36,609 bases of DNA, from the NCBI GenBank assembly GCA_937870635.1, contig CALMZP010000148.1, positions 1 to 36,609 on the forward strand. The letters are read 5' to 3'. The stretch comes from an uncultured Acidobacteriota bacterium. Its GTDB lineage: Bacteria > Acidobacteriota > Thermoanaerobaculia > Gp7-AA8. Below the pieces are notes generated by a model. That model saw only the letters and a program-made list of their open reading frames with translations. It was not told where the DNA came from and searched no databases. Shown here one piece after another: positions 27,195 through 33,054 of this stretch (the first letter of the stretch is position 1; every line of letters starts with the position of its first letter). The position numbers and the translations under genes were made by a program.

Positions 27195-28420
27195 GTGTGT
27201 CGCTGCTCCAGCGCTGCGATCTGCGGTACATCCTTGTCTCCCCTTCCGGAGAGATTCGCTACGACGACGGAACCGGTGGCGATGTCGTTCCCGTTCCGCA
27301 TCAGCCAACCGAGGGCGTGCGACGACTCGAGCGCAGGGATGATCCCCTCCTTCTCGCTCAGTCGATGGAACGCTTCCAGAGCCAGCTCGTCGCTGCAGTC
27401 GTGATACTCGATCCGTCCGACCTGCTGCAGATAGGCGTGCTCCGGTCCTACGGAGGGATAGTCGAGGCCGGCCGAGATCGAATGCGTCTCAGAGATCTGC
27501 CCGAACTCATCCTGCAGCACCATCGAGTGCGTCCCATGAAGAACGCCGGGCATCCCGCCGCTGAATCGCGCGGCGTGGTCGCCGAGTTTCGGCCCGCGCC
27601 CGCCAGCCTCAACGCCGATCATCCGGATCGACTCGTGTTTCAGCATCTCGTAGAACAGCCCGATGGCGTTCGATCCGCCGCCGACGCACGCGATCGCGAC
27701 ATCGGGCGTCTTTCCCACCCGCTTGCGCAACTGCACGAGCGCCTCCCGTCCGATCACCGATTGAAAGTCGCGCACGACCATCGGATAAGGATGTGGCCCG
27801 AGGACGGAGCCGAGGATGTAGTGGGTGGTGCGGACGTTGGTGACCCAGTCACGGATCGCCTCGTTGATCGCATCCTTCAGCGTCCGGCTTCCGCTCGACA
27901 CCGGCACCACCTCGGCACCCAGGAGTCGCATACGGAACACGTTGAGCTCCTGCCGGGCCATGTCCACTTCGCCCATGTACACGACGCACTGCAGGCCGAG
28001 GAGAGCGCAGGCCGTCGCGGTTGCGACGCCGTGCTGGCCGGCGCCCGTTTCCGCGATGATCCGCTTCTTCCCCATGTTCCTCGCGACGAGAGCCTGGCCG
28101 ACGGCGTTGTTGATCTTGTGCGCACCGGTGTGATTGAGATCTTCGCGCTTCAGAAACAGACGAAAGCGGCCGCACAGCTCCGCGAACCGAGGCGCTTCGG
28201 TGAGCGGCGTCGGCCGTCCGACGAACTCCGCGAGAATGCGATCGAGCTCGTGACGGAACTCGCGGTCGCGGCGCATTTTGCGATACGCCGCATCGAATTC
28301 ATCGAGCGCGGCGGTCAGCGTCTCCGGGACATAGCGGCCGCCGAAGTCACCGAAGTAACCGGCACGATCCGGGAGGGACTTGCTCGAAGTCGCTCTTGGT
28401 TTTCTTGGCTGCTCTGTCAT
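27191..28420 (-). CDS. trpB: Tryptophan synthase beta chain
   Basis: The 409-residue PLP enzyme condenses indole with serine. K102 in [14 protein letters not shown] is the Schiff-base lysine, and GGGSNAIG is the PLP phosphate loop. [15 protein letters not shown] marks the N-terminus. The open frame extends into the TTTTGGA repeat, but ATG 28420 gives the normal start. It is separated from trpF by that repeat, the only place in the trpD-to-trpA run where genes do not overlap. Confidence 0.97.
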
Positions 28421-28433
28421 TCTGGCTCGTTCA

Positions 28434-28520
28434 TTTTGGATTTTGGATTTTGGATTTTGGATTGAATTCTGGAGATGGCTGAATCTCAATCCAAAATCCA
28501 AAATCCAAAATCCAAAATCG
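28434..28520. repeat. TTTTGGA heptamer arrays in inverted orientation, copy 2
   Basis: TTTTGGA units (28434-28463) face TCCAAAA units (28487-28520) across 23 bases. The stem of about 30 bp lies between trpF and trpB, in the middle of the trp operon, and could act as an attenuator, processing site or polarity element. Confidence 0.96.
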
Positions 28521-28522
28521 CC

Positions 28523-29140
28523 TCATCCCCGCCTGACCCGATCAAATAGCGCCTCGATTTTCCCCGGGTCCTTCACTCCCGGCTCGCTCTCCACGCCGCT
28601 GGCGATGTCGATTCCGTTCGGGCGCACGAGACTGATCGCCGCGCCGATACTGTCCGGCGTCATACCGCCGGCGAGGAAGAAGGGTTTCGAGCGCGCGTAC
28701 GTCGTGAGCAGCGACCAGTCGAACCGCCGCCCCGTGCCGCCGGCGCGCCGCTCTTCGTAGGTGTCGAAGAGAAACCATTCCGCCGACGGATGCGCCGTCG
28801 TGTCAGGGAGCGCGTCACCCACGCGGAACGACTTGATGGCCGGGATCCCGATCGCGCGGATGTCTTCGTCCGTTTCCGATCCATGCAGCTGCACGAGGTC
28901 GAGGCCGGCCATCTCCGCAATCTGGCGGACGTATTCGACCGAGGCATCGCGGAAGACGCCGACGAATTTCGGCCGGCTGGGGCGGTCGCGTAGAACCCTC
29001 GTGATCTCCGCCGCCTTTTCCGGCTCGATGAATCGCGGTGTCGACGGCACGAAGATGAAGCCGAGAAAATCGGCTCCCTTGTCGGCGCTGAGCAGCGCGT
29101 CTTCCATGCGCGTCAGGCCGCAGATCTTGATCCTGGTCAT
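28523..29140 (-). CDS. trpF: Phosphoribosylanthranilate isomerase
   Basis: The 205-residue TIM-barrel protein opens with RIKICGLTRMEDALLSADKG, including the catalytic cysteine, and has FVGVFRDASVEYV and FFLAGGMTPDSI, followed by a phosphate-binding SGVESEPGVKDP. It converts phosphoribosylanthranilate to its carboxyphenylamino form. The ATG overlaps the trpC stop as ATGA. Confidence 0.96.
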   Translation of the reverse strand: MTRIKICGLTRMEDALLSADKGADFLGFIFVPSTPRFIEPEKAAEITRVLRDRPSRPKFVGVFRDASVEYVRQIAEMAGLDLVQLHGSETDEDIRAIGIPAIKSFRVGDALPDTTAHPSAEWFLFDTYEERRAGGTGRRFDWSLLTTYARSKPFFLAGGMTPDSIGAAISLVRPNGIDIASGVESEPGVKDPGKIEALFDRVRRG

Positions 29141-29919
29141 CTGTCTCCTCCCGTGAGGCGGCGGACGGCCGCGGAGCGGTCATCCTGCCGCAAGAGCGAC
29201 TCGCCTACCAGAAAGGCATCGAAACCCGCTGTCCGCAGGCGTTCCACGTCGCCGCGCTCGCGGATGCCGCTCTCCGCAACCTTGATTTTCCCTTCCGGAA
29301 TCTTTGCCCCCAGCCTTTCCGACGTCGCCAGATCGACAGCGAAGTTGCGGAGGTCGCGGTTGTTGACGCCGATCACGCGCGCGCCACCTTTGATCGCCCG
29401 CGCGAGCTCCTTCTCGTCGTGCACCTCCACGAGAGCGTCACATCCAAACCGCTCGAGCGTATCGATGTAGCGCCGGATCTTTCCCGCATCGAGCAACGAC
29501 GCCAGGAGCAGTACGGCATCGGCCCCGGCCACCACTCCTTCGAGGAGCTGCGCCTCGTCGATGATGAAGTCCTTCATCACGACCGGAAGCCCCGACGCCT
29601 GCCCCGCCCTTCTCAACCATTCCCGGTTCCCTCGAAAGAACTCGGGCTCGGTCACGACGGAGATCGCATGCGCGCCACCTTGGCGATACTCGGCTGCGAT
29701 CGCCTCGACGTCAGGGTTCTCCACGATCGTGCCGGCCGACGGCGATGCGGCCTTGATCTCGGCGATGACGCTGATCCCTTTCTGTGCCAGCGCGCGTGAG
29801 AATGCGTGCGGCTCGTGCTGGCGTGCCGCGATCGTGGCGCGGCCGAGAAGGTCCTCGCGATCCAGGGGCGCCGCTGCGAGGCGTGCGCGCGTGCGTTCCA
29901 CGATGTCGTCGAGAATCAC
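29137..29919 (-). CDS. trpC: Indole-3-glycerol phosphate synthase
   Basis: The 260-residue TIM barrel has the family signatures IAEIKAASPSAGTIVENPD, SVVTEPEFFRGN, VMKDFIIDEAQL and GVNNRDLRNFAVDL. It makes indole-3-glycerol phosphate, the TrpA substrate. The start is GTG 29919, overlapping the trpD stop as GTGA. Confidence 0.96.
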   Translation of the reverse strand: MILDDIVERTRARLAAAPLDREDLLGRATIAARQHEPHAFSRALAQKGISVIAEIKAASPSAGTIVENPDVEAIAAEYRQGGAHAISVVTEPEFFRGNREWLRRAGQASGLPVVMKDFIIDEAQLLEGVVAGADAVLLLASLLDAGKIRRYIDTLERFGCDALVEVHDEKELARAIKGGARVIGVNNRDLRNFAVDLATSERLGAKIPEGKIKVAESGIRERGDVERLRTAGFDAFLVGESLLRQDDRSAAVRRLTGGDR

Positions 29920-30929
29920 TGTCTGCGCGTCTCCTCGATCAGCTCCTGCAGTTTGTCCATCGCGCGCCCGTCGACAATCGCTGCGCGGGCCATCGCTGCG
30001 CCTTCCCGAAGCGTGCGCGCCTCTCCTGCCACGTAGAGCGCCGCGCCGGCGTTCGCGGCCACGACATCCTGTCCTCCCCCGGGTCGTCCGGAGAGGATGT
30101 CCCGCGCAATCTGCGCGTTCATTCGGACATCGCCGCCGGCCAGCGTCTTCACGTCGTGCGTGCCCACGCCAAAGTCATCCGGCGAGACCTCATACGACTT
30201 CACCTTTCCCTCGTGCACCTCGGCGACATGCGTCTTCGCGCTGACAGAAATCTCGTCCATCCCATCGCGGCTGTGAACGACCATCGCGTGGATCGCACCG
30301 AGGGCCACGAGGACATCGGCAACCACCTCCACCAGCTCATCGGAGTAGACGCCGAGAACCTGACGGCGCGCGAAGGCCGGGTTGGTGAGCGGACCGAGGA
30401 CGTTGAAGATGGTTCGGACGCCGAGCTCGCGGCGCACCGCGGCGACGGCACCCATGGCCGGATGGAGCTTCGGCGCAAACAGAAACGAAATCCCCACACG
30501 CCTCAGCACCCTTGCCATCGCCTCAACCTGCAGGTCGATGTTGACGCCGAGCTCGGCGAGGACGTCGGCGCTGCCGCATGACGACGACACCGCGCGATTG
30601 CCATGCTTGGCGACGTTCGCACCGGCCGCTGCCGCGACGATCGCCGCCACGGTCGAAATGTTGAACGTGCCTCGCCCGTCGCCGCCGGTTCCGCATGTGT
30701 CGACGAGCCGGTCGCGGTCGACATCGAGCGGCGTCACGCGCTCGCGCATGGCCATCGCGGCGCCGGTGATCTCCGCCGGCGTCTCGCCCTTCATGCGCAG
30801 TGCCACGAGGAGCGCGCTCTTCTGGACGTCGGTCGCCCGCCCGTCCATCACGTCGGAGAATACCTGATGCATCTCGTCTCGCGTGAGGTTCTGGCCGGAC
30901 ATCGTCCTTTTGATTGCGGCGGCGATCAT
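29916..30929 (-). CDS. trpD: Anthranilate phosphoribosyltransferase
   Basis: The 337-residue enzyme has the PRPP-binding loop VDTCGTGGDGRGTFNIST, then KHGNRAVSSSCGSADVLAEL, and GPLTNPAFARRQVLGVYSDE. ATG 30929 is preferred over the longer open frame because it gives the family start IKRTMSGQNLTRDEM and overlaps the trpG stop as ATGA. Confidence 0.96.
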   Translation of the reverse strand: MIAAAIKRTMSGQNLTRDEMHQVFSDVMDGRATDVQKSALLVALRMKGETPAEITGAAMAMRERVTPLDVDRDRLVDTCGTGGDGRGTFNISTVAAIVAAAAGANVAKHGNRAVSSSCGSADVLAELGVNIDLQVEAMARVLRRVGISFLFAPKLHPAMGAVAAVRRELGVRTIFNVLGPLTNPAFARRQVLGVYSDELVEVVADVLVALGAIHAMVVHSRDGMDEISVSAKTHVAEVHEGKVKSYEVSPDDFGVGTHDVKTLAGGDVRMNAQIARDILSGRPGGGQDVVAANAGAALYVAGEARTLREGAAMARAAIVDGRAMDKLQELIEETRRQ

Positions 30930-31492
30930 GACAACCCTCCGAGAAAATTCGCGATCAGGCGGTCGCCGGAGGACGTGCCGTACGACTCGGGGTGGAACTG
31001 GATGCCGAAAAGCGGCCGGCTCCGATGCGAGACGGCCATGATGACGCCATCGGGCGTTTCTGCGTCGACGACGAGATTGGAGGGCATCGAGTCGCGCTCG
31101 ATCACCAGCGAGTGATAGCGCGCGGTGTGCATCGGCCGCGGGCATCCGGCGAACAGCCGCTCACCTTCATGGCGCACTTCGGTGACCTTGCCGTGCACGG
31201 GGATGCCGCCGCGCACGATCCGCGCGCCGAACGCTTCGCCCAGCGCCTGATGCCCGAGGCAGACGCCGAGGAGGGGGATGGATGTGTTGGAGCGGATGAG
31301 GTCGAGGACCCTTCCCGCCCGGGACGGGGTTCCGGGCCCCGGCGAGATCACGATCGCCCGCGGCCGGGAATCGATCAGCTCAGCCGGCTCGAATGCGTCG
31401 TTGCGGACGACCACGAGCGGACGGCCGGAGAGCCGCTCGATCTGCTGGACCAGATTGTAGGTGAAGGAGTCGTAATTATCGACGACGACGAT
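30926..31492 (-). CDS. trpG: Anthranilate synthase glutamine amidotransferase subunit, start unclear
   Basis: The class I amidotransferase supplies ammonia to TrpE. The catalytic triad is visible as C in LLGVCLGHQALGEAFG and H/E in GIQFHPESYG. Coding similarity begins with IVVVDNYDSFTYNLVQQIER, the normal TrpG N-terminus, at the ATC codon 31492-31490. In this frame the first stop upstream is TGA 31537-31535, and the 14 codons between contain no ATG, GTG or TTG. The first standard start inside is GTG 31414, which would delete 26 conserved residues. Either a non-standard start is used or the 5' end is mutated. trpE, usually upstream, is replaced by a repeat. Confidence 0.85.
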   Translation of the reverse strand: MVVVDNYDSFTYNLVQQIERLSGRPLVVVRNDAFEPAELIDSRPRAIVISPGPGTPSRAGRVLDLIRSNTSIPLLGVCLGHQALGEAFGARIVRGGIPVHGKVTEVRHEGERLFAGCPRPMHTARYHSLVIERDSMPSNLVVDAETPDGVIMAVSHRSRPLFGIQFHPESYGTSSGDRLIANFLGGLS

Positions 31493-31594
31493 CGAATGAG
31501 GGACGGAGCCAAAGACGCTCCCGGAGAGTGGCGTTCATGGGATGGGGAGAATACCCCAAAACGGGGGAGCAGCGTGAACCTGTCCGAAAATCGA

Positions 31595-31674
31595 AATGTT
31601 GAATGTTCAATGTTGAATGTTCAATGTTGAAGACATTTCAACATTCAACATTGAACATTCAACATTCAACATTT
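31595..31674. repeat. AATGTTS heptamer arrays in inverted orientation
   Basis: AATGTTG and AATGTTC units alternate from 31595 to 31631, and the inverse CAACATT/GAACATT units run from about 31635 to 31674 with a loop of only a few bases. A near-perfect stem of over 30 bp results. It lies between rmuC and trpG, where trpE would be expected. Confidence 0.96.
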
Positions 31675-31704
31675 CACTTCTAACTTGCCAGGCGCCGGAC
31701 ACGT

Positions 31705-31734
31705 GCCGGCGGGATCGCCCGCGGCTCCACGTCT
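31705..31734. repeat. GCGGGCGA palindromic element next to rmuC
   Basis: GGCGGGATCGCCCGCGGCTCC with a trailing ACGTCTCTAA abuts the rmuC stop codon. The last bases match those at the fpg breakpoint, so they probably define one end of the element. Confidence 0.8.
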
Positions 31735-33054
31735 CTAACGCTCCATGGGCACGATGACCCCTTCCTCCTCTCCCTGCATGGTCAGCCGGAGCTTGGAGGA
31801 TTGGAGGGGGACGGCTTCGAGCTGAGCGGGGACGGCCAGCTCCTTGCCGCTGCCGGCCATGCGCTGCATCTCCTCGCCTTTCGGCCAGAGGCGAGTATCG
31901 ATGGAGCGGATCGCTTCGTTGTAGCGCTCGACCGTGGTGGCGAGAGCGTTGCCGACCTTGCTGATGTACTCCATCACCTTCACGAAGCGGTTGAAGAGGT
32001 CGACGCCCGCGTCGTGCATCTTCCGGGCGTTCTCTTCGGTTTTTTCCGCGTGCCATCCGGCGTTCACGGCGCGCAGGAGCGGCATGAGGATCATCGGCGT
32101 CGCGACGTAGACCTTGCGCTGGACGGCGTAGTCGAAGAGGTCGGCGTCGTTCGGGATGAACTGCTCGCCGGGCACGAACATGACCATGAAGTCGAGGCTC
32201 TCACCGATCGCGCCCTGGTAGTCCTTGCGGCTCAGAGTGTCGATGTGGCGGCGCATGTTGCGGGCGTGAGAGGCCAGGAGAGTCTTGCGCTGTTCTTCGT
32301 CGGTCACCTGCGCGGCTGCAGCGTAATCACCGGTCGGCGCCTTCGAGTCGACGGCGATGACGCGGTTGTTCGGGAGGCGGACGATCATGTCCGGGCGAAG
32401 ACGGCGGCCATCATCCCCTTCGATCGTTTCCTGCACGGAAAAGTCGCAGTACTCGGTCATGCCGGCCAGCTCGACGCAGCGGCGCAGCGAGATCTCGCCC
32501 CACGAGCCGCGGAAGACCGGCGACTGGAGCGCGTTGGCGAGGCGCGAGGTTTCGCGCTGGGCCGATTCCTGGACGGAGAAGAGAGCACGGATCTGCTCCT
32601 GCAGTCCGCCGTAGCTCTCCTTGCGAGCGGCCTCGCTGTGGATCAGCTCTCCGCGGTAGCTCTCGACCATGACGCGCAGAGGCGCGAGGAGAGCCTCGAT
32701 CTCCACTCTCTTCGTCTCGAGCGAGCCCTCCACCTGCTGCTTGTTCATCTGCACCAGGGTTTCAGAGACCTGCGAGAACGCGCGCTGAGCGAGCGCGGCG
32801 AAGGTCTCCTCGATCTGCTTATGGTTGGCGAGGAGCTTGTCGGTTTCGGAGGCGCGGGTCTCGGCGACCGCCTGGGCCCTCTGCGCCGCTTCGACGCGGC
32901 GCCGCATCTCGGCCACTTCGGCATCGATCCGGCGGCGCTCACCCTGGGCGAGGTCACGCTCGGCGTTCGCCCGCGCGACTCGTGCCCCGGCGGCCACCCA
33001 CCCCACCACCAGCCCCGCCCCCACCGCCACCACCGCGGCCAGGATCGTTGTCAT
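31735..33054 (-). CDS. rmuC: DNA recombination protein RmuC
   Basis: The 439-residue protein has an N-terminal membrane anchor (ILAAVVAVGAGLVVGWVAAG), a long coiled coil (about 28-190, with LAQGERRRIDAEVAEMRRRV) and the RmuC nuclease-like domain with RGSWGEISLRRCVELAGM, RPDMIVRLPNNRVIAVDSKA and FVPGEQFIPNDADL. The VIAVDSK core fits the PD-(D/E)XK fold. Family members limit DNA rearrangements between inverted repeats, which is notable in a window so rich in them, although proximity alone proves nothing. ATG 33054 is preferred over TTG 33057. Confidence 0.94.
   Translation of the reverse strand: MTTILAAVVAVGAGLVVGWVAAGARVARANAERDLAQGERRRIDAEVAEMRRRVEAAQRAQAVAETRASETDKLLANHKQIEETFAALAQRAFSQVSETLVQMNKQQVEGSLETKRVEIEALLAPLRVMVESYRGELIHSEAARKESYGGLQEQIRALFSVQESAQRETSRLANALQSPVFRGSWGEISLRRCVELAGMTEYCDFSVQETIEGDDGRRLRPDMIVRLPNNRVIAVDSKAPTGDYAAAAQVTDEEQRKTLLASHARNMRRHIDTLSRKDYQGAIGESLDFMVMFVPGEQFIPNDADLFDYAVQRKVYVATPMILMPLLRAVNAGWHAEKTEENARKMHDAGVDLFNRFVKVMEYISKVGNALATTVERYNEAIRSIDTRLWPKGEEMQRMAGSGKELAVPAQLEAVPLQSSKLRLTMQGEEEGVIVPMER

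Follow-up and report, generated by a model that had tools for sequence, protein, structure and literature searches.

The Missing Start Codon of trpG

How is a biosynthetic gene translated when no start codon stands ahead of its conserved N-terminus? The question is raised by trpG in a stretch of 36,609 nucleotides (the window) from an uncultured member of the Acidobacteriota. The gene body (30926-31492, minus strand, with its stop codon at 30926-30928) codes for the anthranilate synthase component II, a protein of 188 amino acids that matches the NCBIfam TrpG profile TIGR00566 at 183.9 bits against a cut-off of 121.05. It is the single close trpG copy in the window genome, the four remaining matches being only 25-37% identical. 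When the trpG frame is read back from the conserved N-terminus, no ATG, GTG or TTG is present between the stop TGA at 31537-31535 and the ATC codon at 31492. The absence of a standard start, which the original prediction had placed in this interval, was thereby borne out. The same was true of a second claim, that an out-of-frame ATG at 31538 opens a peptide of 20 codons that terminates inside trpG; the peptide reads MNATLRERLWLRPSFDRRRR and its frame ends at 31476.

The family to which the window genome belongs (Acidobacteriota, Thermoanaerobaculia/Gp7) was compared across 18 genomes, in which the window genome is designated G000. TrpG is present in all 40 genomes drawn as relatives, the window genome included. 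The comparison of this junction in close relatives, a check named beforehand, revealed five further family genomes without a trpG start, giving 6/18 in total (G000, G001, G002, G006, G007 and G014). The remaining 12 carry an ATG, GTG or TTG at codon -1, directly before the conserved isoleucine, and outside the family (22 genomes) an ATG or GTG was found at each of the 12 trpG loci read. A Shine–Dalgarno match of at least four bases within 20 nt precedes 11 of the 12 ordinary trpG starts; in the six start-less genomes the sole match is a GGTG in G014, 13 nt off. The six span five genera, and five of them are metagenome assemblies by title. The missing start is a real and conserved feature of this gene, beyond chance or base-calling error. 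As five more assemblies are built alike, a mutation (one of the explanations offered at the outset) or a sequence error in the window genome alone is excluded.

Two peculiarities were recorded in this comparison. The trpG of G011 (locus L016) starts with TTG in the context GGAGAACGGACTTTGATT, which contains CTTTGA, either by chance or as a remnant. The TrpG of locus L042 (QHVY01000068.1; identical to L022) has 173 residues as against 188, with 15 missing after VVRND through a real deletion or an assembly fault.

A Conserved Word Between Two Reading Frames

All six start-less family genomes carry CTTTGGC 3-33 nt ahead of the DNYDS codons, and the other 12 lack it within 33 nt of these codons. 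The longest word common to the six leaders, taken as the last 70 nt before the conserved isoleucine, is the 9-mer CTTTGGCTC (31506-31514, minus strand, in the window). It contains the proposed +1 slip heptamer CTT_TGG_C (31508-31514, minus strand), with CUU in the P-site and UGG in the A-site, which is invariant in the six. Dinucleotide shuffling of the six leaders, done 2000 times and without regard to shared ancestry, gave common words of 5 nt at most. The start-less TrpG proteins are 70-78% identical in pairwise comparison, and fourfold third positions only 49-62%. In eight window genes, only 17 of 181 leucine codons are CTT, so its retention over CTC or CTG is not the default.

The reading frames on both sides of this word are maintained. 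The distance from the leader ATG to the CTT is 24 nt in the window and 48, 18, 21, 18 and 57 nt in the other genomes, and that from the TTT to the isoleucine codon is 21 nt in the window and 21, 12, 18, 18 and 9 nt elsewhere. All of these are multiples of three and the latter interval is stop-free throughout, so that both frames survive insertions and deletions. In each of the six, the CTT of CTTT lies in the frame of the upstream ORF, a C follows the A-site codon, and the gene body, without a start of its own, is kept in the +1 frame relative to the leader. As both flanking frames are kept despite their differing lengths, the frame switch must sit at the invariant word. In the window, the linker GGC TCC GTC CCT CAT TCG (31493-31510, minus strand) would be read as GSVPHS in the trpG frame after the shift. 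Of the explanations originally offered, frameshifting is therefore the one that gains support, since the 20-codon peptide has counterparts in five relatives and the switch falls at the conserved CTTTGGCTC.

The Leader and Its Promoter-Like Box

The leader ORF (31476-31538, minus strand) constitutes the zero frame. A -10-like box, TATTCT (31548-31553, minus strand), fits the pattern TANNCT and lies 9 nt before the leader ATG. The box is found 9-10 nt upstream of the leader ATG in all six motif genomes, where the leader ATG was chosen as the one behind a TANNCT box; three leaders have more in-frame start codons upstream of the box, and L042 has a GTG within the leader. Among the 1017 ATGs of the window on both strands, one has TANNCT at this distance, namely the leader ATG. 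With the usual promoter geometry, a transcript begins within a few bases of the ATG when the box is 9-10 nt away. The position of the box suggests an almost leaderless mRNA, and with a 5′ end so close, ribosomes would meet the leader ATG before any other start codon. The ATG at 31538 is likely to be the true initiation site and no stray ORF.

Through the slip site, the leader peptides read MNATLRERLWL (window), MTSLRENESAISVDSRLWL, MSTPVRLWL, MNAPRDRLWL, MSSRDRLWL and MNTNSPLQENESLRSADSCLWL. Each of the six contains one tryptophan codon only, at the slip site and ahead of a tryptophan-synthesis gene. In 6/6 genomes, the A-site codon specifies the end product of the pathway. This link went unremarked when the peptide at 31538 was originally described. 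The stop codon of the leader lies 12-36 nt after the first base of the CTT in the six genomes; in L048 and L050 it begins 7 nt before the isoleucine codon, whereas in the other four it begins 11-14 nt past the first base of that codon.

Distribution and Descent

Of 148 genomes of the class, six have the word CTTTGG near the codons of the TrpG N-terminus, all of them in the family of the window genome. In a sample of 396 genomes of the phylum it was found in one, the window genome itself, the other five motif genomes being outside that sample. A scan of a collection of 84,980 species, which covered CTTTGGCT only, gave 16 matches. Five, all in the same family, lack a start and carry the TTT in the frame of trpG; these are assemblies already among the six motif genomes, so the matches add no independence, and QHVS, QHVX and QHVY look like one project. 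In the other 11, the TTT is in a different frame and the DNYDS frame holds at least one start codon; not all of these 11 are trpG. The pattern CGNCTTTGGCTCG, which fits neither the window leader nor that of G001, is not enriched genome-wide, with 23 places in 14 of 18 family genomes versus 45 for the reversed control.

Free trees of TrpG and TrpE split the six motif genomes, with three changes on the careful tree, and many of the inner branches are weak. A single clade for the six is not rejected (p-AU 0.101). Six genomes make a small set and, as one origin is not rejected, they are not to be counted as six independent events.

Proposed Mechanism of trpG Expression

The proposal is that expression of trpG depends on an obligatory programmed +1 frameshift at CUU_UGG_C that senses tryptophan, a reading to which a probability of about 0.73 is given. 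That slippage is needed to make TrpG at all can be held with more assurance and, from the comparison with relatives, is very probable.

A promoter immediately upstream would yield an almost leaderless mRNA, on which ribosomes would initiate at the leader AUG (31538) and translate the short ORF up to CUU_UGG_C. With ample Trp-tRNA, the UGG would be decoded and the ribosome would end at the leader stop, yielding no TrpG by that route. Under scarcity of Trp-tRNA, the UGG codon would stay empty and hold the ribosome with tRNA-Leu on the CUU. This tRNA would then slip by one base from CUU to UUU, GGC would be read next, and translation would enter trpG. The predicted trans-frame product is MNATLRERL-GSVPHS-IVVVDNYDSF..., with RLGSVPHSIVVVDNYDSF as the junction peptide. 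Translation of trpD may follow by coupling, which is possible since its start overlaps the trpG stop.

Genes for tRNA-Leu(GAG) and tRNA-Trp(CCA) were found in the window genome. We infer that low Trp-tRNA would switch trpG on at the UGG because starved A-site codons cause slippage in published systems. In vitro, 70S ribosomes undergo a +1 shift at CUU when the UGU (Cys) codon that follows is starved, and a hairpin upstream stimulates this shift (PMC6321510). Tryptophan starvation provokes ribosome slippage in human melanoma cells (PMC8310308).

Elements that might stimulate the shift were also considered. In the window, the Shine–Dalgarno-like GGGAG (31518-31522, minus strand) is a possible stimulator, 3 nt before the CTT as in prfB; in the predicted fold, it is largely paired with bases 3′ of the slip site. 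Inspection by eye gave no evident element of this type at the prfB spacing in the other five leaders. Predicted hairpins end approximately 2-3 nt before the CTT in L041 and L053 and, in a small and weak form, in L042, and neither a Shine–Dalgarno-like element nor a hairpin was clear on inspection of motifs and folds in L048 and L050. The fold energies of the six leaders differ little from those of shuffles except in L053, with z values from 0.28 to -2.21, the latter in L053. These predictions point only weakly to a stimulator.

Alternative Explanations

The frame and motif evidence fits equally well with a +1 frameshift that is real but constitutive, setting a fixed low level of TrpG without any tryptophan response and with UGG as merely a slow codon. 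Such a reading is also favored by trpE, which has no such device in the 17 of 17 genomes parsed. It is nonetheless considered unlikely, as the A-site codon is that of the end product and the only tryptophan codon of the leader in all six genomes, and hungry codons increase +1 shifting at CUU in vitro (PMC6321510). The window TrpG has no tryptophan residue and neither has the window TrpD, which would suit synthesis under starvation. TrpG is free of tryptophan in all six start-less genomes, and also in most relatives, 9 of the 12 with an ordinary start, so this property is not specific to the motif genomes.

AUC is a very poor initiator codon. A start at the AUC at 31492 or another rare codon was among the original options. 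Initiation there or at some other near-cognate codon, by ribosomes that reinitiate while the leader is being translated or afterwards, is retained as a rival, albeit an improbable one. An ATC is the first conserved trpG codon in all six motif genomes and the leader stop is close by, at the distances given above. Against this, ATC is also the commonest codon at that place in the normal-start relatives (ATC in eight, ATT in four) and so is nothing special, there is no four-base Shine–Dalgarno sequence close ahead, and both the conserved CTTTGGCTC and the kept trpG frame from the motif to the isoleucine are left unexplained. A short leader ORF with a tryptophan codon upstream of a trp gene would equally be expected of a classical attenuation peptide, in which ribosome stalling at tryptophan codons sets the termination of transcription. 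There is, however, one such codon and no run. With the leader either overlapping trpG or stopping 4 nt short of the isoleucine codon, no room is left for a terminator. Moreover, trpG would remain without a start, and attenuation is very improbable here. Least probable of all is that the gene has decayed, or that sequencing or assembly introduced an error. Indels do occur in metagenome assemblies, and the trpG of L042 is 15 residues short, but the arrangement is repeated in six genomes of five genera, and the window trpG shows no other defect and has no second close copy in its genome.

It had also been suggested that insertion of a repeat moved the start. This is unsupported, as the repeat in question, an inverted repeat with 39-nt arms (31593-31675), lies upstream of the promoter-like box, between it and rmuC. 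Its arms are 92% complementary and contain TTGAATGTTGAATGTTCAATG-like units; it is possibly a terminator or a mobile repeat, and a short piece resembling it is also present upstream in L041. A trp leader or T-box RNA was sought with Rfam at 31300-31900 and rejected, with no match for either (for the T-box, none at E values up to 5). None of the 17 matches returned reached its gathering score; the AT-rich inverted repeat accounted for 16, and the remaining one, mir-3661, fell within trpG.

Relation to Known Systems

The tryptophan-sensing frameshift proposed here has its closest counterpart in prfB, the gene of RF2, whose classical +1 site is CUU_UGA_C (PMC12421855). In both, a U follows the CUU slip codon, the A-site codon is slow and begins with UG, a C comes after it and the gene body lies in the +1 frame, and both would work by negative feedback, with scarcity of the product leading to the shift. 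They differ in that the slow codon at trpG is UGG (Trp) in 6/6 genomes instead of a UGA stop, so that the quantity sensed would be Trp-tRNA and not RF2. In addition, what precedes the shift at trpG is a mini-ORF immediately downstream of a promoter-like box, and a Shine–Dalgarno-like element is clear only in the window. Since a sense codon replaces the UGA stop, the trpG site resembles prfB in its working without belonging to that family.

The prfB gene of the window genome carries CTATCTTTGAC with the same CUU slip, at the site CGGAGCTATCTTTGAC, and the genome presumably already uses CUU-to-UUU slippage. Sites of the prfB type have a Shine–Dalgarno-like AGGGGG 3 nt before the CTTT. In 15 of 20 prfB-search loci over the 18 genomes, CTTTGAC at the prfB place was followed by an open +1 frame. 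As to the other five, L104 and L106 are below the prfB cut-off, L102 is at a contig end, and L101 and L103 have none.

In the Ty1/ABP140 site of yeast, the AGG codon is slow because its tRNA is rare. Frameshifting at hungry codons has long been studied as an error, and in the attenuation of the trp operon the tryptophan codons of the leader peptide report the charging of tRNA-Trp. The trpG leaders resemble attenuation leaders in placing a short ORF with a tryptophan codon ahead of trp genes; unlike these, the output would be a choice of reading frame, there is one tryptophan codon, and leader and gene would form one fused product. The Ty1/ABP140 site, CUU_AGG_C, likewise consists of CUU, a slow sense codon and then C, as given in a 2016 review (PMC5009743), and differs in its eukaryotic ribosome, its genes and the lack of metabolite sensing. 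The likeness to experimental hungry-codon frameshifting (the work of Gallant, Cys-starved CUU_UGU and Trp-starved melanoma cells) lies in A-site starvation that causes a P-site tRNA to slip. Those experiments dealt with laboratory constructs or aberrant products, whereas the trpG site is conserved and would be the only evident route for translation of its gene.

It is probable, though somewhat less so than the mechanism itself, that trpG represents a natural amino-acid sensor that works by programmed frameshifting at a starved sense codon; it would be the first known case of hungry-codon slippage as a designed route to a protein. In the 2016 review, Atkins and colleagues considered that starvation-specific trans-frame products could exist, although “no examples are known” (PMC5009743). 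Among the papers listed in searches of the open-access literature, with subscription journals mostly outside its scope, neither a frameshift ahead of trpG nor a natural hungry-codon control seems to be described. The words trpG, tryptophan and starvation are absent from the main text of a survey of prokaryotic frame transitions (PMC3711429).

If the proposal is true, a conserved CUU_UGG_C before trpG would supply the missing starvation-specific example in an easily measured pathway, and would add, beside attenuation and T-box RNAs, a further way to read tRNA charging. It would explain a trpG start that annotation based on start codons must misplace, and would offer a simple part for the building of amino-acid sensors. 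It also suggests a search for other start-less biosynthetic genes preceded by a mini-ORF in which their product's codon occurs.

The trp Cluster and trpE

In the window, trpG is followed by a co-directional trp cluster identified with NCBIfam profiles, all on the minus strand: trpD (29916-30929; TIGR01245, 427.1 bits), trpC (29137-29919), trpF (28523-29140) and trpB (27191 to about 28420). The start of trpD overlaps the trpG stop as ATGA. An ATG or GTG overlaps the trpG stop in all six motif genomes, with a TrpD motif behind it in five.

The gene for the partner subunit is arranged differently. An ordinary start and no CTTTGG in the 120 nt upstream were found for trpE in 17/17 family genomes parsed, including all six motif genomes, and an ATG is visible at the trpE start of the 18th (L059). 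The device would therefore govern TrpG, and perhaps the genes behind it, but not TrpE. In the window genome, trpE is on a separate contig (G000:C107:15332-16657, L060), behind an apparent aroE end; it adjoins trpG in G003 and G005, and a trpE fragment does so in G012. Two further TIGR00564 matches, on contigs C30 (L077) and C132 (L173) of the window genome, were examined as candidate PabB partners that might share TrpG. On a reading of the ORFs, both look menF-like and each adjoins an apparent menD; when three frames of a stretch of the C132 gene were scanned for protein families, there was no match. Within the cluster, the trpB ORF has an upstream extension (about 28400-28501) that apparently derives from a short repeat between trpF and trpB, and the real trpB start is probably a downstream ATG.
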